DNA of 64,000 nucleotides, taken from the NCBI GenBank assembly GCA_937959275.1, contig CALGLU010000091.1, forward strand, positions 1 through 64,000, given 5' to 3'. The stretch is from an uncultured Saprospiraceae bacterium. GTDB lineage: Bacteria > Bacteroidota > Bacteroidia > Chitinophagales > Saprospiraceae. Positions 30,832-40,443 of the stretch are shown here, one piece after another. The notes beneath the pieces are model-generated. The model did no database searches, was not told the origin of the DNA, and saw only the letters and a program-made list of their open reading frames with translations. The position numbers and the translations under genes were made by a program. Positions within the stretch are counted from its first letter, which is position 1. Each line of letters begins with the position of its first letter.

Positions 30832-31401
30832 TTAGTTATGTATTAAAAGAGAATCAACGAATGCGTTAATCGTAAATGAGGGGTCGACATGCGCAAACTT
30901 GACTTGTTGGTTTTCATCAATAATGTAGGTAGCTGGGATGAAAGAAAAGTCTTTGCTGCCGTACGAATGATTTGCTCTTACATATTCTTCTGGCGCGTCA
31001 CTTATGATACCAAAACTACGCATGATCGATAGATCTTGGTCAACAACAATTGACACATCAGGATCAGTTTCTTGTCTAGAGTTTGGACTACCAGTAAATG
31101 GAGTAGGGGTGATGGCTATCGTGTGGCCGCCTTTCTGCGTAATCTTAGAGAGCTCTTCTCTAAAATGACTCAATGATTTGTGACAGCCCTCGCACCAAAA
31201 GCCTTGGTAGAATAGTAACACAATGTTGCCGGTTTTCACCATCGATCCCAAATGGACTTCCTTTCCTGATATAGTTCTTGCCGTAAAGTCTGGTGCATAG
31301 TCTCCTTTTGCCAAGCCTATAGGACTTTGCGTAGGTGGCATAAATGCACCCGATATAGATATACATAAAAGAGCTAGTCCTAAGAAAATGAATGGTCGCA
31401 T
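30832..31401 (-). CDS. Exported peroxiredoxin/AhpC-TSA family protein
   Basis: 189-aa thioredoxin-fold redox protein with an N-terminal signal (PFIFLGLALLCISISGAF). It has GDYAPDFTARTISGKEVHLG, LFYQGFWCEGCHKSLSHF (Cys70/Cys73) and FIPATYIIDENQQV. The WCxxC in place of the peroxiredoxin PxxxTxxC makes it closer to the redoxin/alkyl-hydroperoxide-reductase-like group. A thiol reductase or peroxidase role in the periplasm is inferred. Its start overlaps the acyl-CoA dehydrogenase stop by one base (TAATG), so it is probably the last gene of the catabolic unit, perhaps handling oxidative by-products. It is convergent with the beta-lactamase-fold gene. Confidence 0.8.
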   Translation of the reverse strand: MRPFIFLGLALLCISISGAFMPPTQSPIGLAKGDYAPDFTARTISGKEVHLGSMVKTGNIVLLFYQGFWCEGCHKSLSHFREELSKITQKGGHTIAITPTPFTGSPNSRQETDPDVSIVVDQDLSIMRSFGIISDAPEEYVRANHSYGSKDFSFIPATYIIDENQQVKFAHVDPSFTINAFVDSLLIHN

Positions 31402-32948
31402 TAAGCTAAGAGACTTTGAAGTTTCATTGCCACGCCCATATCACCGACTATTTTAATTTTCCCAAACATCACCGCTCCCATTGCATCCATTTGTCCTGCC
31501 ACTATTTTTTCGAAATCTTCCATCGACACATTCAATGTACAATCAGCTTCTTTGTTTTCACCAGTCACTGTATTGTCAATACCCGTACCATCAATATGGA
31601 TTTGTTGTTCGCCAAAGTCAAATTTTAAACTCTTGCCCAACGCGTCTGCCTTTGCAGCCTTTGCACGTATGCCTTCAAGAATGTCTTCGAAGGAACTGCC
31701 TGTTGTCGCTGCCTGTGCTGCCGTAGCCGTTTGTCCATTCGATTTTCCATTTGCTTTTGCGTTTGTATTCCCTTGATGAGGAGACTTAGGTTGCTCATAA
31801 GATTGATCCTCTATAATCATCTTGGCTATAATGTTTCTCATGATCTCTGACGAACCTCCGCCAATCGTACCCACACGCACATCTCTATACATTCGTGCCA
31901 TGGGATACTCTTCCATAAAACCATAGCCTCCAAAAAATTGTAAACATTGTGTGGCTACTTTTTCACATAGTTCGGTAGCTAACAATTTTGCCATGCTACA
32001 CAATTTGACATCATAGATGCCTTCAGAATACATCTTACAACAGTGATAAGAAAAGGCTTTTAAGGCCTCAACCTCAGAAGCTAACTGTGCCACTCTGTGC
32101 CGTAACACCTGAAATTTATTGATTGATCGACCAAATGCTTCACGTTCTGCCATATATTTCAGCGAGACTTCGATGGCTTTTTCACAGCCGGTCACAGCCG
32201 CAGGCACGGCACAAAGACGTTCTAGTTGGAGCCCATTCATTAAATAATAAAATCCCCTTCCTTCTTCTCCAATCAAATTCTCCTTGGGCACTTTTACATT
32301 GTCAAAACTTAACTCTGCCGTGTCAGAACTATGCCAACCTAGTTTTTTTAACTTCCGCGCTGACACGCCTTCCATGCTTTGCTCAATGACCAAAAGGCTG
32401 ACACCTGCCGAACCAGCAGATGGATCGGTCTTAACGACAGTGATGATAAAATCTCCATACACACCATTGGTAATGAAGGTTTTTGATCCATTGACCAAAT
32501 AGTGATCTCCTTTATCTTCGGCTCTTGTCTGAATGTTTTGAGCATCAGATCCTGCTCCTGGTTCTGTAATCCCAATAGAAGAGATTAAATCTCCTGAAAT
32601 AATGCCTGGTAAGTATTTCTTCTTCAATTGGTCTGAACCAAATTTTAGGATATAGGGGCCTGACATGTATTGGACCACTTGCTGCGTAATCGCAAAGCCT
32701 CCAGAATTACATCTACCTAGCTCTTCATTGAATACTACATCGTAAAAGAAATCCAGATTTGAACCTCCATATTCTTCAGGGTAGGATAGACCTAGAAAGC
32801 CCATGTCACCCATCTTCTTCCAAATATCTCTAGGTGTTTTACGATCTTCTTCCCATTGATCAATATGTGGAATCGCCTCCTTATCTAAAAACTGCCTAAG
32901 GCTTTGTCTGAATAATTCGTGCTCTTCTGTGAAATGTTGCGTACTCAT
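31401..32948 (-). CDS. Acyl-CoA dehydrogenase fused to an SCP2 sterol-carrier domain
   Basis: 515-aa fusion. Residues ~1-385 form a complete flavin acyl-CoA dehydrogenase: SIGITEPGAGSDAQNIQT, NGSKTFITNGVYGDFIITV, QVLRHRVAQLASEVEALKAF, CLQFFGGYGFMEEYPMAR and VGTIGGGSSEIMRNIIAKM. A low-complexity linker rich in Asn/Gln/Ala/Thr follows (~390-420). Residues ~425-515 are an SCP2-like lipid-binding domain (IHIDGTGIDNTVTGE, then ADCTLNVSMEDFEKIVAGQM and GKIKIVGDMGVAMKLQ). The enzyme should introduce the alpha-beta double bond into an acyl-CoA, and the SCP2 domain suggests a bulky hydrophobic substrate. It lies downstream of the SDR gene at 33019 and overlaps the peroxiredoxin start. The fusion itself is directly visible; the substrate is inferred. 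Confidence 0.88.
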   Translation of the reverse strand: MSTQHFTEEHELFRQSLRQFLDKEAIPHIDQWEEDRKTPRDIWKKMGDMGFLGLSYPEEYGGSNLDFFYDVVFNEELGRCNSGGFAITQQVVQYMSGPYILKFGSDQLKKKYLPGIISGDLISSIGITEPGAGSDAQNIQTRAEDKGDHYLVNGSKTFITNGVYGDFIITVVKTDPSAGSAGVSLLVIEQSMEGVSARKLKKLGWHSSDTAELSFDNVKVPKENLIGEEGRGFYYLMNGLQLERLCAVPAAVTGCEKAIEVSLKYMAEREAFGRSINKFQVLRHRVAQLASEVEALKAFSYHCCKMYSEGIYDVKLCSMAKLLATELCEKVATQCLQFFGGYGFMEEYPMARMYRDVRVGTIGGGSSEIMRNIIAKMIIEDQSYEQPKSPHQGNTNAKANGKSNGQTATAAQAATTGSSFEDILEGIRAKAAKADALGKSLKFDFGEQQIHIDGTGIDNTVTGENKEADCTLNVSMEDFEKIVAGQMDAMGAVMFGKIKIVGDMGVAMKLQSLLA

Positions 32949-33018
32949 AAGTATTTGCTTTCGGATTTGAAAATAGTGTTTGTTAGTTTAATAGGCCCTA
33001 AACCTTTGTTAAGTTCAT

Positions 33019-33837
33019 TTATTCAACAAATAAATCTTTCATTAAGGTTTTGCTTGGATTGACAGCGTAATGATCAAAATCATCTACACCTGTTTCTTTT
33101 AATACATCTTCATCTATAAAGAAATTGCCACTGCAAGTGTCGCTTGGGCGGGACAGGATTTCGTAGGCGGCATCTGCCATAATAGACGGATGGCGGCTAG
33201 CTTGGATCATGTCTTCACCGCCTAATAGATTGCGGACTGCTGCTGTAGCAATGGTGGTTTGAGGCCATAAGGCATTGACGGCTATATTATCTTTCTTGAG
33301 TTCTTCTGCTAAGCCGAGTACCGTCATGCTCATACCGAACTTACTTATTGTATAGCCTAGATAGGCACCAAACCATTCTGGTTTTAATTGTAAGGGTGGC
33401 GATAGAGTTAAGATGTGAGGGTTGGTGCTTTTGCGAAGATGAGGGATGCAATATTTTGACACCATAAATGTACCCCTCACATTGATGGAGTGCATCAGAT
33501 CAAAGCGCTTCATCTGCAATTGCTCAGTCTGACTCAAGTTAATCGCACTTGCATTATTGATAAGTATATCTATTCCTCCAAATTTTGCAATTGTATCATC
33601 AATGGCCTGCAAAACCGTTTCTTCTGATCGAATGTCTACGACTACAGGTAAGGCCTGACCACCTGCCTTCTCCAGCTCGTCTGCCGCTGTAAAGATGGTG
33701 CCCTTTAATTTTGGGTGTGGCTCAGTCGTCTTTGCTGCCACCACAATATTTGCTCCTTCAGCTGCTAAACGCATCGCGATCGCCTTGCCAATGCCTCGGC
33801 TCGCACCTGTAATAAATGCCGTTTTACCTTTGAACAT
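33019..33837 (-). CDS. Short-chain dehydrogenase, HSDL2-like
   Basis: 272-aa Rossmann-fold NAD(P)-dependent oxidoreductase. It has KTAFITGASRGIGKAIAMRL (cofactor loop), ILINNASAINL, the catalytic pocket HILTLSPPLQ with YLGYTISKFGMS (Tyr/Lys), and VNALWPQTTIATAA. The sequence order TTEPHPKLKGTIFTAADEL and LWPQTTI is characteristic of the hydroxysteroid-dehydrogenase-like 2 (HSDL2) subgroup. Animal HSDL2 carries a C-terminal SCP2 domain; here that domain is on the neighbouring acyl-CoA dehydrogenase instead. The start is ATG 33837; the upstream TTG at 33846 is less likely. It is separated from the ACAD gene by ~70 bp. It probably oxidises a hydroxyacyl intermediate or a sterol-like alcohol. Confidence 0.88.
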   Translation of the reverse strand: MFKGKTAFITGASRGIGKAIAMRLAAEGANIVVAAKTTEPHPKLKGTIFTAADELEKAGGQALPVVVDIRSEETVLQAIDDTIAKFGGIDILINNASAINLSQTEQLQMKRFDLMHSINVRGTFMVSKYCIPHLRKSTNPHILTLSPPLQLKPEWFGAYLGYTISKFGMSMTVLGLAEELKKDNIAVNALWPQTTIATAAVRNLLGGEDMIQASRHPSIMADAAYEILSRPSDTCSGNFFIDEDVLKETGVDDFDHYAVNPSKTLMKDLFVE

Positions 33838-33886
33838 TAAACTCAATATTTTATATAAAAAAATAAATGTTTTCTGTATTTAAATA

Positions 33887-33963
33887 CCACACCATGTATT
33901 GCGTGGCTACAATACCACGCAATACATTGCGTGGCTACGTATACCACGCAATACATTGCGTGG
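33887..33963. repeat. Triple REP-like palindrome
   Basis: Three 20-bp palindromes occur at 33887-33906, 33915-33934 and 33944-33963. The last two are identical (CCACGCAATACATTGCGTGG) and the first is degenerate (CCACACCATGTATTGCGTGG). They are spaced ~29 bp apart by GCTAC-type linkers. They fill the gap between two SDR genes of the catabolic cluster and may stabilise or end transcripts. Confidence 0.85.
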
Positions 33964-34003
33964 CTGCTTATTTTTAATTAATAATTGATTTTGGTAACAA
34001 AAT

Positions 34004-34753
34004 CTACGCCTTCTGCCCACCATCTACTCTAATTTCTTGTCCATTCACAAAACTGCTACTCTTACTAGACAACCAGGCAATGACTTCCGCCACTTCTTCT
34101 GATTCTCCAAATCGCTTCATAGGAATACTATATTTCATTCGGGTTGCAAGTTCTTCATTGGTACTCAATAAAGATTGTCCCATGGGCGTATCGATAACGG
34201 TTGGACACACGGCATTTACGCGGATATTGAACTTGCCGTATTCTGCTGCAGCTGTTTTAGTTAAGCCAATAACAGCATGTTTACTTGCTGCGTAAGCACT
34301 CATCATCGGCGCTGCTCCAATGCCCGCAAGAGAAGAGACATTCACAATTGTGCCGCCATCTCTCTGCTCCTTCATAATGAGCAATGCCTGCTTCATGCAA
34401 TACCAGACACCTGTTTGATTGACAGCGATCACTTTATCATACAGATCATCTTCATATTGATGTGTAAAGGCAAAGACACCACCGACACCAGCATTATTGA
34501 CAACAGCATCGATTGATCCATGTGTTGACTTTGTTGTCTTGAATAAGTCAGCAACCTGATCTTTCTCCGATACGTCGCACATGTGTACATGAGCTGTACC
34601 ACCTGCTGATCTGATTATGTCATCTGTTTCCATCATGCCATCTTCGTTAATGTCAGAGACAATAACGGTAAATTTTTTCTTGGCTAACAGCAGCGCTGTC
34701 GCTCTACCAATTCCTGATCCCGAACCGGTGACAATTGCAATTTTATGTTTCAT
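34004..34753 (-). CDS. Short-chain dehydrogenase/reductase, FabG-like
   Basis: 249-aa classical SDR. The cofactor loop is IAIVTGSGSGIGRATALLLA, with Asp after it (VIVSDINE) suggesting NAD(H). AVVNNAGVGG, the catalytic NVSSLAGIGAAPMMSAYAASK (Ser, Tyr, Lys), RVNAVCPTVIDTPM and FVNGQEIRVDGGQ follow. A 3-hydroxyacyl-CoA dehydrogenase or alcohol dehydrogenase role fits the acyl-CoA cluster. The gene overlaps the end of the carboxyltransferase gene by 11 bp, so it is co-translated with it. A REP-like array follows. Substrate specificity cannot be read from sequence. Confidence 0.9.
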   Translation of the reverse strand: MKHKIAIVTGSGSGIGRATALLLAKKKFTVIVSDINEDGMMETDDIIRSAGGTAHVHMCDVSEKDQVADLFKTTKSTHGSIDAVVNNAGVGGVFAFTHQYEDDLYDKVIAVNQTGVWYCMKQALLIMKEQRDGGTIVNVSSLAGIGAAPMMSAYAASKHAVIGLTKTAAAEYGKFNIRVNAVCPTVIDTPMGQSLLSTNEELATRMKYSIPMKRFGESEEVAEVIAWLSSKSSSFVNGQEIRVDGGQKA

Positions 34754-36539
34754 GTTTTATTGTTGATTGGTAGGCAGATATAATTCTATGTCTCGTTTGT
34801 GCTGGATCAATGACATCATCAATCTCAAACATTGTCGCCATGCTCAATGCCTTTCCACGTTCGTAGGCCTGCTCGACCATGTTGTTATATACAGTTTCTC
34901 TTTCTATCGGATCTTGTATGGCTTCTAGTTCTTTGCGAAAGCCAAGTTTTACTGCGCCTTCTAATCCCATCGCTCCAAACTCACCTGTCGGCCACGCCAA
35001 CAATAAATTGGGCACTCGCATACTGCCACCAACCATCGCCATCGCACCTAATCCATAGGCTCTTCTAACGACGATTCCAAAAAGAGGAACAGTCAGTTTG
35101 GCACCCGTTACAAAGAGTCGAGAGGCATGCTTTACATTACCTGTTTTTTCAGAATCAACGCCAACCATGATGCCTGGTGTGTCAACCAATGAGATAATGG
35201 GGAGTTGATGCGTATTGCACAAGTTTAAAAACTCGGCTGCTTTGATGGCATTTTCAGCGGTGATTGCGCCAGCCTCAAAGGAGGGATTATTTGCAATTAA
35301 ACCAAAGGCATGACCGCCGATTCTGACGAGGCAACTGATGATGCCTTTGCCGTAATGTTCTCGTAATTCTAGGACACTGTCTTTATCACAAAGTGTTGCT
35401 ATCAAGGCACGCATCTCATAGACGCGCTTTCGATTTTCTGGGATGATATCTCTTAGTGATTGCTGAGTATGTGAGTTGATTTCGTGAGCTGGACCTTGGA
35501 AGTAGGAGAGGTATCGTTTACAAACGACTATGGCTTCATCTTCATTCTCGACTAAGACATCAATAACGCCGTTTTCTAAATGGACCTCATATGGACCTAC
35601 TTCTTTAGGATGTACTTTACCTAATCCGCCACCCTCGATCATTGCAGGACCACCCATGCCCAATGATAGACTCTTCGTACCAATAATAATATCTGAGCTG
35701 CCTGCCAATGCGGCATTGCCAGCAAAGCAATAACCGTTTACAATTGACACGACGGGTACCGTACCGTTCAATCTTGCAAACTCAGTAAAGGTAGAGATGT
35801 GTAATCCTGCAATCGTTTGCTGATCTACATCTCCAGGTCGGCCACCACCGCCTTCTGCGAATAGAATGACAGGTAGTTTGTTTTTGTGCGCGATGCTGAG
35901 CATGCGATCCATCTTCATATGATTCATCGTGCCTTGCGTCCCTGCTAGCACACTGTAGTCATAGATGAATACTGCACATTCTGTATTCTTCGTAAACGAT
36001 TCGCTATTGATTGTACAGGTGCCTGTGATCAAGCCATCAGCTGGTGTATGCTCAATCAGATCTTTAAGTGTTCGCCGACTCAGTTGAGCAGCGACAATTA
36101 AACTTCCGATTTCGTTAAAACTAGTTGGATCAACTAATTTTTGTAAATTTTCTCTTGCGGTATTATGTCCTCTTGCTTTACGTTTCTCAACAGCTGCAGT
36201 GCGGTTTTCGTCAAGCAACCATTGCTGCCTGTTTTGTAATTCTGCCAAATGACTTGTTTGGCCTTTTTCTTTGTTTATTGTAGCCGGAGCTTGCGTTTGA
36301 TTTTGATTGTCTTCTCCTATAGTGATATACTTGAACAATAGATCTCCTTTTTGGATGATCTGACCTTGCTCAACGGCAATGGACTCAATACGTATTTGAT
36401 CTGGTGCACAAATAGCTGTCTCCATTTTCATAGCTTCTATGATCACGAGTTCTTTTCCTTTCTTGACTTCATCACCCTGATTGCATTCGACTGAATGGAT
36501 AACGCCTGGCATAGGAGACAGAAATGTCTGTTGGCTCAT
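34743..36539 (-). CDS. Biotin carrier domain fused to acyl-CoA carboxyltransferase
   Basis: 598-aa fusion. Residues 1-70 are a biotinyl domain with VIIEAMKMETAI (biotin-accepting Lys38) and Pro/Gly turns (SPMPGVIHSV, QGDEVKKGK). After a Gln-rich linker (~75-95), residues ~100-598 are a carboxyltransferase of the propionyl/methylcrotonyl/geranyl-CoA carboxylase beta type: RKARGHNTARENLQKLVDP, IYDYSVLAGTQGTMNHMKMD, GRPGDVDQQTI, IVNGYCFAGNAALAGSSD, LVDTPGIMVGVDSEKTG and AYGLGAMAMVGGS. It should transfer CO2 from biotin to an acyl-CoA, with biotin carboxylase supplied from elsewhere; no such gene is in the window. The carrier is more often fused to biotin carboxylase than to this subunit. It lies 3 bp downstream of the molybdopterin oxidoreductase gene and overlaps the SDR gene. 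Confidence 0.88.
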   Translation of the reverse strand: MSQQTFLSPMPGVIHSVECNQGDEVKKGKELVIIEAMKMETAICAPDQIRIESIAVEQGQIIQKGDLLFKYITIGEDNQNQTQAPATINKEKGQTSHLAELQNRQQWLLDENRTAAVEKRKARGHNTARENLQKLVDPTSFNEIGSLIVAAQLSRRTLKDLIEHTPADGLITGTCTINSESFTKNTECAVFIYDYSVLAGTQGTMNHMKMDRMLSIAHKNKLPVILFAEGGGGRPGDVDQQTIAGLHISTFTEFARLNGTVPVVSIVNGYCFAGNAALAGSSDIIIGTKSLSLGMGGPAMIEGGGLGKVHPKEVGPYEVHLENGVIDVLVENEDEAIVVCKRYLSYFQGPAHEINSHTQQSLRDIIPENRKRVYEMRALIATLCDKDSVLELREHYGKGIISCLVRIGGHAFGLIANNPSFEAGAITAENAIKAAEFLNLCNTHQLPIISLVDTPGIMVGVDSEKTGNVKHASRLFVTGAKLTVPLFGIVVRRAYGLGAMAMVGGSMRVPNLLLAWPTGEFGAMGLEGAVKLGFRKELEAIQDPIERETVYNNMVEQAYERGKALSMATMFEIDDVIDPAQTRHRIISAYQSTIKHET

Positions 36540-36542
36540 AGA

Positions 36543-38654
36543 TTAGGAGTTGAGTTTTTTAACTTGTATTGGAATCGCATTGATGACAGAGACACCACTC
36601 AATTCGTCGACTAATTTTTCGTCCGCCAGATCATTAAAACTGACACCTGCATGTTCTTGTGCGATGGACATTCTAATACCTGATCGATTGTGTCCCCAGC
36701 CATGCGGGATGCTAATCGTGCCTGGCATAATTTCTTCGCTGACTTCTGCCTCGATCTGGACCTGTCCAACATCAGAAGATACTTCGATAATTTCTCCTGT
36801 TGAGATTTGAAGTCGGCTAGCATCTGTTGGATGGATGAGCGCAGTGCAGGTGTTCGGACCTTTTACCATCCGATGTAGATTATGCATCCAGCTGTTATTA
36901 CTTCTTAAATTGCGCCTTCCGATTAATAAGAATCCATCATCATCCTGACTAGATTTTCTTAATGTCTCTATGGACTCTTGGTAAATATCAGGGAATACAT
37001 GAATCTGTTGATTGTCTGTCAGTAAACGTCCTGGTAACTGAGAGGTCAAAGGCCCTATGTCAATACCGTGTGGATGCTTTTTTAGTGTCTCTAAGTTGAG
37101 CTTGTGTGGCCCAAAACTGAGTAGCATATCCAGTTTTTGTTCAAGGGTGTATTCTGGTTTATCAGGAATTGCTTCACCTGTCTGTTGGAATTGATAAGCA
37201 GCGCATGCTTTACCAAGCTCGCTGAATATTTCCCAATCAAACTTAGCTCCTTCTGATTTTTCGACAGCAGGTTCTGAATATTTGGCTGAGTTGTGCACAG
37301 CTAGATTATGAAAGGCGATGGCGTAGTGTGGCGTCTCCAATCCAGTTGCTGGAGGCAGTATCACATCGGCATGTTTTGTTGTTTCATTTAGATAAATATC
37401 AATACATACCATAAAGTCCAGCGACTCAAATGCGCTATCCATTTTTGTACCGTTGGGCACAGATAGGACTGGATTGCCACATGAAGTAATCATTGCTTTG
37501 ATTTGGCCTTCACCTGGAGTTAAGATGTCTTCTGCTAAAGTCGAGGAGGGGAGTTCTCCTCCGTATTCTGGTAGTCCACGCACTCGACTTGACCAACGCT
37601 TGAAGCGTTTAGTTTTTGATTTTCTTGAACTGACATTGACGGCTGGATTCGTAAACATTGCTCCACCGGCCTTGTCAAAATTGCCTGATAGGATGTTGAT
37701 TGTATTAATTGCCCAATGAGACAGTCCTCCATACTTCGAGGCAGAAACGCCTAGTCGTCCATAACAGACAGCAGATTTTGCGCTGAGGAATGAGTCTGTT
37801 AATCCTTGAATGTCAACAGCAGGGATTCCCGTTTTTTCTTCTGCTAATTCTGGAGTAAACTGAGCGACTGCAGCTTTGATCGCAGTAATCTCATCTGCGT
37901 CAATGCAATTCTCCAAATGCTTCAATTCCATTTTGTCATTAAACAGGATAATATGAATCATGCTTAATAAAAGATAGATGTCACTACCAGGTCTGATAAA
38001 CAAATGCTGGTCTGCTTTTTCCGCAGTCTCCGTAAAGCGTGGATCTATCACAACCACCTGACCACCTCTATCTTGAATGTCTCTTAATTTCCCTCTGATA
38101 TCTGGAGCTGTCATCATACTACCATTCGAGACCATAGGATTCCCACCAAGGATTAACCAAAAATCTGTCCGATTGATATCAGGCACAGGTATGAATAATT
38201 GATTGCCAAACATGTATTCAGCAGCTAAGTGATGTGCAAGCTGATCTACCGAAGTTGCTGAATATCTGTTTTTAGTTTTGAGTGAGCGCACAAAGTCTGG
38301 TGAAAATAAACTTGTTCCCAAATTGTGAACGCTTGGATTGCCTTGATATATACCGACTGCATCCTTTCCATATTTGATCTGTGTGTCAATGATTCCCTTT
38401 GCTGCTAGTGCATAAGCTTCTTGCCAAGATACATCTATCCATTTACCATCTCGCTTTACCAATGGGGTCTTTAACCGGTCAGGGTCTTCGTGTAAGTCTT
38501 TCATCCCAACTGCCTTTGGACAAATATGACCCTTACTAAACACATCTTGTTCATCACCACGAATGGATAAAACAGTATTGTTTTCCACTTTTACCTCCAA
38601 CCCGCATATGGCTTCGCAGAGATTACAGGTCCTGTATTTTGTTTCTATTGACAT
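36543..38654 (-). CDS. Molybdopterin oxidoreductase with N-terminal 4Fe-4S cluster
   Basis: 703-aa enzyme of the DMSO-reductase superfamily. The N-terminal cluster motif is CNLCEAIC...GHICPK (Cys10, Cys13, Cys17, Cys45). GVYQGNPSVHN-like and ILGGNPMVSNGSMMTAPD strands bind the bis-MGD cofactor. VVVIDPRFTETAEKADQHLFIRPG is split by the usual loops, and the C-terminal barrel has SWMHNLHRMVKGPN and GTISIPHGWGHNRSGI. There is no Tat signal, so it is cytosolic and single-subunit; electron partners are not encoded beside it. It clusters tightly with the carboxyltransferase (3 bp). In a lipid/acyl-CoA cluster it could perform a hydroxylation, dehydrogenation or formate-type oxidation, but no substrate is supported. 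The residue coordinating Mo was not identified. Confidence 0.85.
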   Translation of the reverse strand: MSIETKYRTCNLCEAICGLEVKVENNTVLSIRGDEQDVFSKGHICPKAVGMKDLHEDPDRLKTPLVKRDGKWIDVSWQEAYALAAKGIIDTQIKYGKDAVGIYQGNPSVHNLGTSLFSPDFVRSLKTKNRYSATSVDQLAHHLAAEYMFGNQLFIPVPDINRTDFWLILGGNPMVSNGSMMTAPDIRGKLRDIQDRGGQVVVIDPRFTETAEKADQHLFIRPGSDIYLLLSMIHIILFNDKMELKHLENCIDADEITAIKAAVAQFTPELAEEKTGIPAVDIQGLTDSFLSAKSAVCYGRLGVSASKYGGLSHWAINTINILSGNFDKAGGAMFTNPAVNVSSRKSKTKRFKRWSSRVRGLPEYGGELPSSTLAEDILTPGEGQIKAMITSCGNPVLSVPNGTKMDSAFESLDFMVCIDIYLNETTKHADVILPPATGLETPHYAIAFHNLAVHNSAKYSEPAVEKSEGAKFDWEIFSELGKACAAYQFQQTGEAIPDKPEYTLEQKLDMLLSFGPHKLNLETLKKHPHGIDIGPLTSQLPGRLLTDNQQIHVFPDIYQESIETLRKSSQDDDGFLLIGRRNLRSNNSWMHNLHRMVKGPNTCTALIHPTDASRLQISTGEIIEVSSDVGQVQIEAEVSEEIMPGTISIPHGWGHNRSGIRMSIAQEHAGVSFNDLADEKLVDELSGVSVINAIPIQVKKLNS

Positions 38655-38700
38655 GTTTTTTGCGTTGATTTTTATTTAATAAGTCTACGTCGTGTAGTAC

Positions 38701-38870
38701 TTTACCTGTTTACCTATTTACCTATTTTACCAAGTCCATCCTGAACTTGGTGTACCGTCATCCTGAACTTGATTCAGGATCTAATCTCGCTCTACACAAT
38801 TCAGATTCCGAATCGAGTTCGGAATGACGCTCTCACTTTTTTTACTTTTCAAATCACAAATCACAAATCA
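38701..38870. repeat. Mosaic of intergenic repeats in the catabolic cluster
   Basis: In order: an eight-base TTTACCTA series (38701-38731); palindrome TCCTGAACTTGATTCAGGA (38761-38779); palindrome ATTCCGAATCGAGTTCGGAAT without its last base (38805-38825); and three AAATCAC heptads (38851-38871) touching the enoyl-CoA hydratase stop codon. No gene lies between 38655 and 38870. The palindromes resemble dispersed repeats common in bacterial intergenic DNA. Confidence 0.75.
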
Positions 38871-39689
38871 CTAACTCCCTCCCCAAACAGCCTCCCTCTT
38901 TTCCCGAAATGCCTTCAGCCCTTCAATGCCATCAGCGCTTGTAATCGTTTTCTGCAACATGTCAAATAAGTATTTATGCTCGGCCGCACTGGGTTGTATT
39001 TTTTGGTATGCCTCTAATCCATATTTAATCGCAGAAGGACTATTTTTCTTTAATTCGTTTGTTAGGGCAGTGACTCTGTTGTCTATGTTTTCAGCGGTAC
39101 AGACTTCTGTGACTAGTCCGAATCGCTCAGCTTCTTCGACTGGCAGGTTGTAACCACGTATGCACCAGTCGATAACTTTGCGAGCAGGCATGACTTGCAG
39201 GAGCGCTTGCATAACTTGAAATGGATAAAGACCCCGTTTAACTTCAGGCAAACCGAATTTGATCGCATCTAGCGCTAATACAATAGTTGAGCCGGCCAAA
39301 AAGAAAAAGCCTCCAGCATACACATCGCCTGTTACTTTTGCAATCGTTGGTTTGTGAACTTGGTTAAATAATTCGCCGATTAATATATCTCCATTCGGTT
39401 GTGGAATACTTGAGTCATTTTCTTCAATTATGCCAGCCATCGCTTTGAGATCTGCACCTGCACAAAACACATTTCCTCTTGCTTGGACGACGATCATCCA
39501 GATCGCATTCGTAAGATGTGCATACTGAAATGCGTAAGCTATCTCGTTGACCATTTGCGGGTGAAGAGCGTTTTTTTTCTGTTCTCGATTCAAGGTTATT
39601 GTCAATACGTGATCCGATTCTTCAACAATGAGATAGGCGAATGTTTCATTGTGTATGGATTCTACTTGATCTTGCGTATAAATATTCAT
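38871..39689 (-). CDS. Enoyl-CoA hydratase/isomerase family protein
   Basis: 272-aa crotonase-fold protein. It has VLTITLNREQKKNALHPQMV, the oxyanion-hole segment ARGNVFCAGADLKAM, VYAGGFFFLAGSTIVLALD, FGLPEVKRGLYPFQVM and AERFGLVTEVC. The hydratase Glu pair is partly visible: Glu in LPEVKRG is present, while the first site (GDVYAGGFFF) lacks the usual Gly-Gly-Gly-x-Glu, so isomerase or hydrolase activity is possible. It is the second gene after the TetR regulator, 49 bp downstream of it, and is separated from the molybdopterin enzyme by a 216-bp repeat-rich gap. It belongs to the acyl-CoA catabolic cluster. The product class is sure; the exact reaction is not. Confidence 0.88.
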   Translation of the reverse strand: MNIYTQDQVESIHNETFAYLIVEESDHVLTITLNREQKKNALHPQMVNEIAYAFQYAHLTNAIWMIVVQARGNVFCAGADLKAMAGIIEENDSSIPQPNGDILIGELFNQVHKPTIAKVTGDVYAGGFFFLAGSTIVLALDAIKFGLPEVKRGLYPFQVMQALLQVMPARKVIDWCIRGYNLPVEEAERFGLVTEVCTAENIDNRVTALTNELKKNSPSAIKYGLEAYQKIQPSAAEHKYLFDMLQKTITSADGIEGLKAFREKREAVWGGS

Positions 39690-39738
39690 GATGTTAATCT
39701 TTGAATTTGTATTTAATGTTTTGGAATAACCATCGTGC

Positions 39739-40398
39739 TTAAAATGAAATCAGTGATTCAATATCTATGTCAAAAGGATCTCCTAAGGAATTCAAATAGC
39801 CTTCACCAAAATATTTTTTGAAATTATATAAACCTTTCTCAGTCATATGCGGTAGTAAAACACTCCAAATTAACTTTTCACCGTCTTCTTGTTTTTTCTC
39901 GCCTCTGATAATCTGCTGTGGTAGCCAGAAGAAGGTAAGCATCCAAGCAATAAAGGATAAGTTATTATAAAGACCTGGAAACGCCTCAGGTTTCATATTG
40001 CCAACACCAATTGAAAATGCAATGATTTCCTTATTTTCTTTTATGGATTGAGCAGTGATCTCTCTAAATTGCTTTTTTATCTGAGGATGATTTAATACAT
40101 GTGGATCTAGAAAGATAAAGGCATATTCTTTTTGGTACTTATAGTATAATTGAACTTCATTGTGCAGATTCTTAAAGGACGGGAGTTTAATTGATTTCTG
40201 ACGCTCTGCTTCTAATTTGCTCCACATCTCATTCGAGATCATTGTGAGGAGTTCATCTTTATCTCCAAAGTGATAGGTTAAGTTTCCTCTGCTGATGTTC
40301 ATGTTTTGAGCTATTTCAAAGAGACTAATAGCTCCATATCCATGCTTGTTAAACATCAGCTTGGCCGTAGACATGATTTTAACTTTCGTTTCCGACAT
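39739..40398 (-). CDS. TetR-family transcriptional regulator
   Basis: 219-aa repressor-type protein. The N-terminal helix-turn-helix is KIMSTAKLMFNKHGYGAISL, then FEIAQNMNISRGNLTYHFGDKDEL (residues ~7-52). The C-terminal ligand domain is all-helical and Trp/Phe-rich. It heads the minus-strand acyl-CoA cluster, so an acyl-CoA or related intermediate is the likely inducer, as for FadR-like and AtuR-like TetR proteins. An 8-bp-arm perfect palindrome sits at 40424-40443, touching a -7-like box, so autoregulation is likely. The start MSETKVKIM follows the operator region by ~25 bp. It is divergent from the 847-aa surface protein. Confidence 0.9.
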   Translation of the reverse strand: MSETKVKIMSTAKLMFNKHGYGAISLFEIAQNMNISRGNLTYHFGDKDELLTMISNEMWSKLEAERQKSIKLPSFKNLHNEVQLYYKYQKEYAFIFLDPHVLNHPQIKKQFREITAQSIKENKEIIAFSIGVGNMKPEAFPGLYNNLSFIAWMLTFFWLPQQIIRGEKKQEDGEKLIWSVLLPHMTEKGLYNFKKYFGEGYLNSLGDPFDIDIESLISF

Positions 40399-40416
40399 AC
40401 GGCAAGTTAATATTAT

Positions 40417-40443
40417 TAAAGATATTAGTCACTATTGACTAAT
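40417..40443 (-). promoter_or_regulatory. TetR operator palindrome with adjoining -7 box
   Basis: The palindrome ATTAGTCACTATTGACTAAT (40424-40443) has perfect 8-bp arms around CTAT, a typical TetR-family operator size. On the minus strand TATCTTTA (40417-40424), one mismatch from TAnnTTTG, abuts it on the gene side. Bound repressor would cover the core promoter of the regulator gene 19 bp away. Confidence 0.65.

Follow-up and report, generated by a model that had tools for sequence, protein, structure and literature searches.

A TetR-associated acyl-CoA operon of an uncultured Saprospiraceae bacterium as a probable part of a dispersed, Atu-like regulon

The closest described systems to the locus considered here are the acyclic terpene utilization (Atu) pathways of Pseudomonas aeruginosa/P. 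citronellolis and Thauera linaloolentis, which likewise have a TetR regulator, an acyl-CoA synthetase, an acyl-CoA dehydrogenase (ACAD), a geranyl-type two-subunit carboxylase, an enoyl-CoA hydratase/isomerase (ECH) family protein and short-chain dehydrogenases (SDRs); AtuR is described, in the part of PMC9973270 that deals with it, as binding inverted repeats. Our locus is a set of eight predicted genes, all on the minus strand at 30832-40398, in a 64,000-nucleotide stretch (the window, meaning the whole of the DNA analysed) of contig C91 (CALGLU010000091.1, positions 1 to 64,000; assembly GCA_937959275.1) of an uncultured Saprospiraceae bacterium. The genome of the window is called G000 and its contigs have C-numbers; G-numbers are other genomes and L-numbers their loci. 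We think it rather probable that this operon belongs to a TetR-controlled regulon that represents a variant of the Atu pathway and degrades carboxylic acids with a beta-methyl branch, probably isoprenoid ones. The original prediction from the window had proposed an Atu-like route for branched or isoprenoid acyl-CoAs under TetR control, and at the level of sequence that proposal has gained from a geranyl-like carboxylase pocket encoded on contig C78 and from a common predicted operator. The regulon differs from the Atu pathway in that its genes occupy three or more operons, whose TetR genes are paralogous and whose operator sequence is another one, in that G000 has a beta-keto acid cleavage enzyme (BKACE) and no AtuA was found in it, and in the addition of an SCP2 domain, a carboxyltransferase of the long-chain acyl-CoA carboxylase (LCC) type and a molybdenum enzyme. 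Genes that are never together on one G000 contig would thereby be joined into one testable regulon with candidate carboxylase partners, and what had been a vague acyl-CoA cluster becomes a specific prediction: that terpenoid acids, or others with a beta-methyl branch, are degraded.

The eight genes, whose domains were checked with Pfam, encode the following proteins: a TetR-family regulator of 219 aa (39739..40398; TetR_N and PF13972), an ECH family protein of 272 aa (38871..39689; PF00378), a single-subunit molybdopterin oxidoreductase of 703 aa with [4Fe-4S] cysteines (36543..38654; PF00384, PF01568 and PF04879), a 598-aa fusion of a biotin-carrier (BCCP) domain and a carboxyltransferase (CT) of the LCC type without a biotin carboxylase (BC) domain (34743..36539; PF00364 and PF01039), a FabG-like SDR of 249 aa (34004..34753; PF13561), an HSDL2-type SDR of about 272 aa (33019..33837, with the ATG at 33837 taken as its start; NCBIfam PRK08278), an ACAD of 515 aa with a C-terminal SCP2 domain (31401..32948; PF02771/PF02770/PF00441 and PF02036) and an AhpC/TSA-type redoxin of 189 aa with a WCEGC motif and what looks like an N-terminal signal sequence (30832..31401; PF00578). 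Pfam and the coordinates thus agree with the original prediction on eight genes with these domains on one strand; its "several start/stop overlaps" was slightly generous, as there are two true overlaps (ACAD/redoxin, 1 nt, and CT/FabG-like SDR, 11 nt). The molybdopterin gene and the CT gene are 3 nt apart, and the remaining gaps are 49, 216, 166 and 70 nt. The HSDL2-type SDR scores 454 bits with PRK08278 (cut-off 250) and 325 bits with the HSDL2 structure 3kvo, and the FabG-like SDR passes the generic SDR model PRK07231 with 227 bits (cut-off 215).

The predicted TetR operator is a perfect palindrome, TTAGTC-N6-GACTAA, at 40425..40442, 26 bp ahead of the tetR start. Read on the minus strand, this copy is TTAGTC-AATAGT-GACTAA, and it is the sole match in the window at one mismatch or less, where 0.13 would be expected in shuffled sequences. 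The palindrome recurs, each time with a different 6-base middle, 66 bp ahead of the C78 carboxylase gene and 65 bp ahead of the tetR gene on C81, and the 197 kb of G000 that were examined hold three perfect sites, one before each of the three operons. In 1.15 Mb of related loci there are six perfect sites against 0.15 in simple base shuffles; five precede a gene of the regulon families (tetR or ECH) and one precedes the tetR gene of a tetR-ACAD-HMG-CoA-lyase-type operon of G392. Counted by gene, nine of the ten tetR genes of the regulon family have the operator at one mismatch or less (six of them perfect), and the tenth sits inside the C78 operon, whose first gene carries it. Among 443 control genes, four had a perfect match and none a match with one mismatch; the four, which include the window's 847-aa gene, border the same gaps at the opposite end. 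Within the genus the operator ahead of the cluster is perfect in G000 and G392 and has one mismatch in G489. We infer that the TetR proteins control the three operons through this common palindrome.

The operon on C78 encodes a carboxylase beta subunit (531 aa) and alpha subunit (656 aa, with BC and BCCP domains; its BT match of 28.5 bits narrowly misses the cut-off of 31), a TetR protein 51% identical to that of the window, a BKACE protein (PF05853, 313 bits, a match spanning almost the entire protein) and an SDR resembling 2,4-dienoyl-CoA reductases (212 bits, under the cut-off of 318). The C81 operon encodes a TetR protein 47% identical to the window TetR, two ACADs that are each 51% identical to the window ACAD, an acyl-CoA synthetase, and a protein in which a thiolase-like part is fused to an ECH domain. 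G000 has synthetase, ACAD and SDR genes distributed over three operons with paralogous TetRs and a common predicted operator, and the window operon looks to belong to a dispersed regulon made up of three or more operons. The expectation that at least one carboxylase partner would lie elsewhere has held up, since the operons of C78 and C81, each preceded by that predicted operator, encode candidate partners. The G000 assembly is 97.6% complete in 144 contigs; C78 starts 548 bases ahead of the carboxylase gene and may be cut there.

What the C78 carboxylase acts on can be approached through its pocket. According to PMC4673880, Phe191 and a three-residue insertion in methylcrotonyl-CoA carboxylase (MCC) narrow the pocket that geranyl-CoA needs, and geranyl-CoA carboxylase (GCC) has Gly162 at the position of MCC Phe191. 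The C78 CT and nine related CTs all lack the MCC insertion (10/10), and nine of the ten have Gly at the GCC Gly162 position, the other having Ala. The residue numbers were mapped by alignment and are to that extent inferred; the placement of the pocket gap differs between two alignments, which leaves the geranyl comparison unchanged and shifts the MCC Phe column. By domains and pocket, alpha and beta subunits of the geranyl type are found on C78. On plasmids the best matches of the C78 CT are about 49-53% identical and come from Actinomycetota. Loci of Dietzia, Mycolicibacterium, Rhodococcus and Tsukamurella have an AtuA-annotated gene in or near the cluster, no insertion, and Gly (three) or Ala (one); a fifth locus, from Sphingomonas (45%), has no AtuA annotated, and a sixth, from Nocardia, is without annotation. 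In the four actinobacterial AtuA-type clusters the carboxylase beta and alpha subunits are 51-53% and 38-42% identical to those of C78, TetR, ACAD and ECH genes are nearby in all four, and an AMP-binding or fatty acid-CoA ligase gene is present in three. They differ from the G000 regulon in carrying AtuA, with no annotated BKACE in the stretches examined, and their other enzymes are 22-40% identical. The ACAD-SCP2 protein had no plasmid match at 1e-100.

Related genomes hold similar gene sets. The same-genus genome G489 has six of the eight window genes together, in the order TetR-ECH-Mo-CT-FabG-ACAD, and G392, also of the genus, has seven of the eight across two contigs, with ECH-SDR-synthetase-HSDL2-Mo-CT on one and CT-FabG-ACAD-redoxin on the other (those genes of G392 and of G362 that are split over two contigs were treated as separate pieces and not joined). 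The redoxin holds the same place in G392 (49% identity) and was not seen at the G489 locus. In more distant family members TetR, ECH, the HSDL2-type SDR and the ACAD are joined in one operon: L165 (G384) and L163 (G483) are single operons of TetR, CT, BC-BCCP, ECH, BKACE, SDR, synthetase, HSDL2-type SDR and ACAD-SCP2, L171 (G375) is the same without the synthetase, and further variants are found in L172, L170, L175, L173 and L162. Because gene sets recur in this way in G489, G392 and more distant relatives, the eight-gene set is, to judge by gene order, more than a chance grouping; from the single operons of the relatives, the window operon would be part of their set with the molybdenum gene, the LCC-type CT and the FabG-type SDR added. 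The FabG-like SDR gene also adjoins the same type of CT gene in G420 and G435, and in G353 it lies three genes from the molybdenum gene.

Co-occurrence was counted in 150 family genomes, G000 included. The geranyl-type CT of C78 is in 35 of them, BKACE in 26 and the ACAD subfamily of the window in 31 (at least 63% identity), and all 26 and all 31 fall within the 35; the ACAD count omits 7 of 38 genomes with matches of 49-51% identity, and some of the 31 proteins lack SCP2 or lie in a frame of about 800 aa. Among the matches listed, the LCC-type CT is in 18 genomes, 16 of which belong to the 35 (of 136 genomes with a match, the 18 at 53% identity or more were kept, the others listed being 27-32% identical). 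The molybdenum gene is in 35 genomes, 24 of them within the 35 CT genomes (39 had matches, and four at 28-31% identity were dropped). Again among the matches listed, 16 of the 18 LCC-type CT genomes have both it and that CT.

The proposed pathway would run as follows: the TetR proteins would occupy TTAGTC-N6-GACTAA and be released once a pathway acyl-CoA accumulates. A synthetase of the C81 type would activate the acid, acyl-CoA dehydrogenases would introduce the 2,3-unsaturation, the C78 geranyl-type carboxylase would add CO2 to the branch methyl, and an ECH protein would hydrate the carboxylated enoyl-CoA; the window ECH is proposed as this hydratase. An HMG-CoA-lyase-type enzyme (not found in the G000 assembly) would then cleave the product, releasing acetyl-CoA and leaving a free beta-keto acid, which BKACE would exchange with acetyl-CoA to give acetoacetate and a shortened acyl-CoA. 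In the AtuA-type alternative, the tertiary-hydroxy intermediate would give acetate and a beta-ketoacyl-CoA, a CoA ester usable by thiolase. The SDRs would carry out hydroxyacyl or dienoyl steps.

The general BKACE reaction uses a free beta-keto acid. The C78 protein, which differs from described members of the family (PF05853) in falling under the cut-offs of the four NCBIfam models that it matched, so that it has no assigned subfamily, and in sitting with a geranyl-type carboxylase, belongs to a group in which HIHARE, ECFD and RVGxEDN are conserved in 10 of 10 proteins; we take these to be the metal-binding and catalytic residues. In G489 two CoA-transferase subunit genes adjoin BKACE, which would fit acetoacetate as product. 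AtuA (PF07287) was searched for in 16 of the 35 geranyl-type CT genomes and is present in all four that lack BKACE (G392, G434, G353 and G405) and in none of the 12 that contain it, a split for which exact counting gives 1 in 1820 by chance, on an assumption of independence that does not hold for these genomes; the BKACE-lacking G364, G365, G418, G448 and G467 lay outside this sample, and some of the genomes are incomplete, G353 being 87% complete. Because the two genes are mutually exclusive in the 16 genomes, we tentatively suggest, at somewhat less than even confidence, that BKACE replaces the AtuA step of an Atu-type pathway. The lyase role of AtuA is itself called speculated in the relevant passage of PMC9973270, and a literature search, mostly of titles and the starts of abstracts, found no paper joining BKACE with terpenoid degradation. 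Were the replacement real, it would be a new way through terpenoid-acid degradation and would tell what one BKACE subfamily does; it would also, by exclusion, support the lyase role of AtuA. The exclusivity is a direct handle on AtuA and on the C78 BKACE subfamily. BKACE was also considered as a replacement for HMG-CoA lyase, which was not supported: HMG-CoA-lyase-type genes are present in 135 of the 150 family genomes, including most that have BKACE. Such genes stand in a single cluster of CT, AtuA, BC, ACAD, lyase-type gene and second CT in G405, and in the tetR-ACAD-lyase operon behind the operator in G392.

Several observations weigh against a BKACE-containing, Atu-like regulon. AtuA (PF07287) had no match in G000 and HMG-CoA lyase was not found there, so that one step is missing, perhaps through an assembly gap; the presence of a lyase-type gene in other genomes says little, because so many have one, and the lyase-type proteins of G405 and G392 score 69 bits with Pfam HMGL-like, that of G405 reaching 191 against the NCBIfam lyase cut-off of 246. 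The variant is not uniform within the genus, G392 having AtuA without BKACE. Among the NCBIfam models listed, curated cut-offs are passed by the two SDRs alone (by the FabG-like protein for a generic model), and because no cut-off is passed by the other proteins of the cluster their functions cannot be read from a family name. The ECH protein is under every NCBIfam cut-off among the models listed (best 25 of 70), and with 108 bits against the AtuE model NF004227 (cut-off 426) it does not score as an AtuE-type hydratase. The ECH, the FabG-type SDR, the C78 SDR and the synthetase are 22-32% identical to their actinobacterial counterparts, and the HSDL2-type SDR matches the actinobacterial clusters over 95 residues only. 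The molybdenum gene and the LCC-type CT gene lie outside the full operons of the more distant relatives that were opened. The Fisher values for co-occurrence are very small, but they ignore kinship. C81 has one extra operator copy with one mismatch (L196:3637), and the operator counts are partly circular, as the motif was derived from some of the regions later counted; L169, L171, L172, L175 and L225 were not among, or not correctly placed in, the motif-discovery regions.

The molybdenum enzyme and the BC-less CT are separate small puzzles, and there is, in our estimate, a little less than an even chance that both are mere passengers in the operon, with roles unconnected to the pathway. The molybdenum protein has the same molybdenum-cofactor and Fe4S4 domains as enzymes of the FdhF/thiosulfate reductase type, and its best solved relative is an FdhF subunit (153 bits). 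An Asp that is invariant in 25 of 25 aligned rows stands, as we read the alignment, at or near the position of the (seleno)cysteine molybdenum ligand of FDH-H and thiosulfate reductase, and is the predicted molybdenum ligand here; in this, in having no adjoining subunit genes and in scoring at most 153 bits, the window enzyme differs from that type. An Asp ligand is found in the molybdenum hydrocarbon hydroxylases (EBDH/S25DH type), whose large alpha subunit is periplasmic and is accompanied by beta and gamma subunits. The window protein differs from these in its length of 703 aa, its N-terminus MSIETKYRTCNLCEA without visible signal sequence, the absence of partner subunit genes adjoining it and a score of 48 bits with the EbdA model (cut-off 2000). 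Its gene was matched at E<=1e-60 in 3 of 345 phylum genomes, G000 included. It stands apart from cluster-type genes in G152 and G190 and on one Deinococcus, one Streptomyces and one Sphingobium plasmid (the three opened of 30 plasmid matches), and there was no match among viral contigs. As it is rare in the phylum and elsewhere apart from pathway genes, it was ruled out as a pathway marker.

The original prediction had included a molybdenum step and pointed to the neighbourhood of this gene and the CT fusion as a check. Among the 20 family loci opened, the two genes are in one cluster in 3 of 3 same-genus genomes, with the predicted operator ahead, and in 0 of 17 others, so adjacency does not extend beyond the genus; both being in 16 of the 18 CT genomes (above) argues, like the genus clusters, against mere passengers. 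The molybdenum gene is thus present, and what ties it to the pathway is chiefly its adjacency in a single genus. In other genomes it stands apart or, in G384 and G483, adjoins synthetase, thiolase, ACAD and 4HBT-type thioesterase genes, and the CT gene frequently has genes for other ACADs, for an APH-type kinase or for a histidine phosphatase as neighbours, as a passenger might. In the molybdenum tree the three genus members group with G362 (99/99), and G384 and G483 are next (96/98); the acyl-CoA-type neighbours in G384, G483 and G353 favour a role in acyl-CoA metabolism for this branch.

In the original prediction the window CT had the role of the Atu carboxylase. It was considered as such and ruled out: it scores 587 bits with the LCC-type structure 4rcn (chain residues 503-1068) and 584 bits with 5fif, against 149 bits with GCC beta and 136 bits with MCC beta. 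LCC enzymes are described, in the portion of PMC6491548 concerned, as acting on C2 to C16 acyl-CoAs. The window protein matches the C-terminal half of these single chains, with the CT domain, and differs in having no BC domain and in sitting in an acyl-CoA degradation operon. Full-length relatives have 1065-1335 aa by longest frame, and a homologue is annotated at about 1060-1110 aa in six plasmid loci (Deinococcus, Rhodococcus, Pseudomonas, Tistrella, Paracoccus and Pseudosulfitobacter). In a tree of excised CT domains the BC-less proteins of the window, G489, G392, G357 and G424 cluster (98/98), then join the full-length protein of G405 (98/97) and then G387 (91/80); G362, which is in pieces, was excluded, G392 is represented by one 534-aa piece, and Tistrella is not included. 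Since BC-less forms nest beside full-length ones, the BC domain has probably been lost from the window type. Ten other family genomes have the CT domain alone. At E<=1e-60, 48 of 345 phylum genomes have CT matches, and all except that of G000 are generic CTs of 29-34% identity that match from residue 83; a wider contig scan found at least 80 CT loci, seven of the LCC type (44-58%; six of these are in the tree) and the others generic (24-31%). An Acidimicrobiales contig (L066) has a 584-aa LCC-type BCCP-CT frame in which no BC motif was found, perhaps an independent split. L152, L153, L155 and L197 have a CT-only LCC-type gene or a C78-like cluster near an APH-type kinase gene, some with ACAD and histidine phosphatase genes as well, neighbourhoods that strike us as reminiscent of ACAD10/11-type 4-hydroxyacyl-CoA degradation.

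As had been predicted, BC is absent from the cluster and encoded elsewhere in the genome: no BC gene was found inside the window cluster, and three are on C11, C140 and C78. Read from sequence and context, the C11 gene adjoins a propionyl-CoA-carboxylase-type CT, a separate BCCP and apparent methylmalonyl-CoA mutase parts, and the C140 gene is AccC-like and beside an AccB-like gene; two further BC matches on C87 are read as one CarB-type protein. We regard it as unlikely that the BCCP-CT protein works without any BC, as a transcarboxylase or decarboxylase between CoA esters. The apparent loss of the BC domain and the lack of an adjoining BC gene would fit this, as would the transcarboxylase 12S subunit being its best solved match (240 bits) after the two LCC-type ones; however, the C78 BC, behind the same predicted operator, could serve the protein, and beyond the family the proteins most closely related to it are full-length carboxylases that include a BC domain.

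That the regulon serves fatty acids, methyl-branched or unsaturated ones such as DSF-like signals, instead of isoprenoids also seems improbable to us, at a similar level. An Atu-type gene set can serve another substrate, because, according to PMC9973270, the degradation of DSF in Pseudomonas nitroreducens involves a cluster with 79-91% similarity to AtuR and AtuA-H. Two further hints point the same way: the regulator has a weak PsrA-type match, and the model nearest to the C78 SDR is one for 2,4-dienoyl-CoA reductase, whose cut-off it does not reach. On chemical grounds, however, it is a methyl group at the beta carbon that calls for a geranyl-type carboxylase, and DSF and iso-fatty acids have none there, an argument that the Pseudomonas case weakens.

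That the regulon is the ordinary leucine/isovalerate (Liu) pathway, with isovaleryl-CoA dehydrogenase, MCC and methylglutaconyl-CoA hydratase, we consider distinctly unlikely. The C78 beta subunit does score slightly higher with the MCC structure than with that of GCC (492 and 479 bits), an overall score that does not separate the types; the best match of the alpha subunit is an MCC alpha chain (558 bits), with no geranyl alpha chain among the matches listed, and solved relatives of the window ACAD include isovaleryl-CoA dehydrogenases. The MCC-type pocket, Phe and insertion, is absent from the C78 CT, and both features are present in the other such CT of G000, on C105. Leucine breakdown has no need of the regulon's acyl-CoA synthetase, BKACE or SCP2, the carboxylase is in just 35 of the 150 genomes against the 135 with HMG-CoA-lyase-type genes, and the lyase of that pathway is the one not found in G000, which may be an assembly gap. 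Sterol (cholesterol) side-chain degradation is very improbable: an SCP2 domain and an HSDL2-type SDR are present and EchA19 is the best model for the ECH protein (below cut-off), but we know of no place in it for a geranyl-type carboxylase.

Two of the gaps in the operon, which we favour as part of an Atu-like regulon, have features of their own. The gap between the SDR genes holds about three 29-bp palindromic repeats with a CCACGCAATGTATTGCGTGG core (33883..33965; Tandem Repeats Finder and sequence reading), probably an extragenic repeat element inserted inside the operon. The 216-bp gap between the ECH and molybdenum genes (38655-38870) has imperfect inverted repeats CATTCCGAA.. / ..TTCAGGATGACG; since the corresponding gap in G489 is 38 bp, it may also be an insertion. 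Promoter and terminator scans gave predictions not above the level of shuffled sequence. Just past the window on C91, from about 66058 to 70800 and onward (L017:2058-6768 and beyond), lies a type III-A CRISPR-Cas locus, in which Csm1/Cas10 (545 bits), Csm2, Csm3 and Csm4 pass NCBIfam cut-offs.

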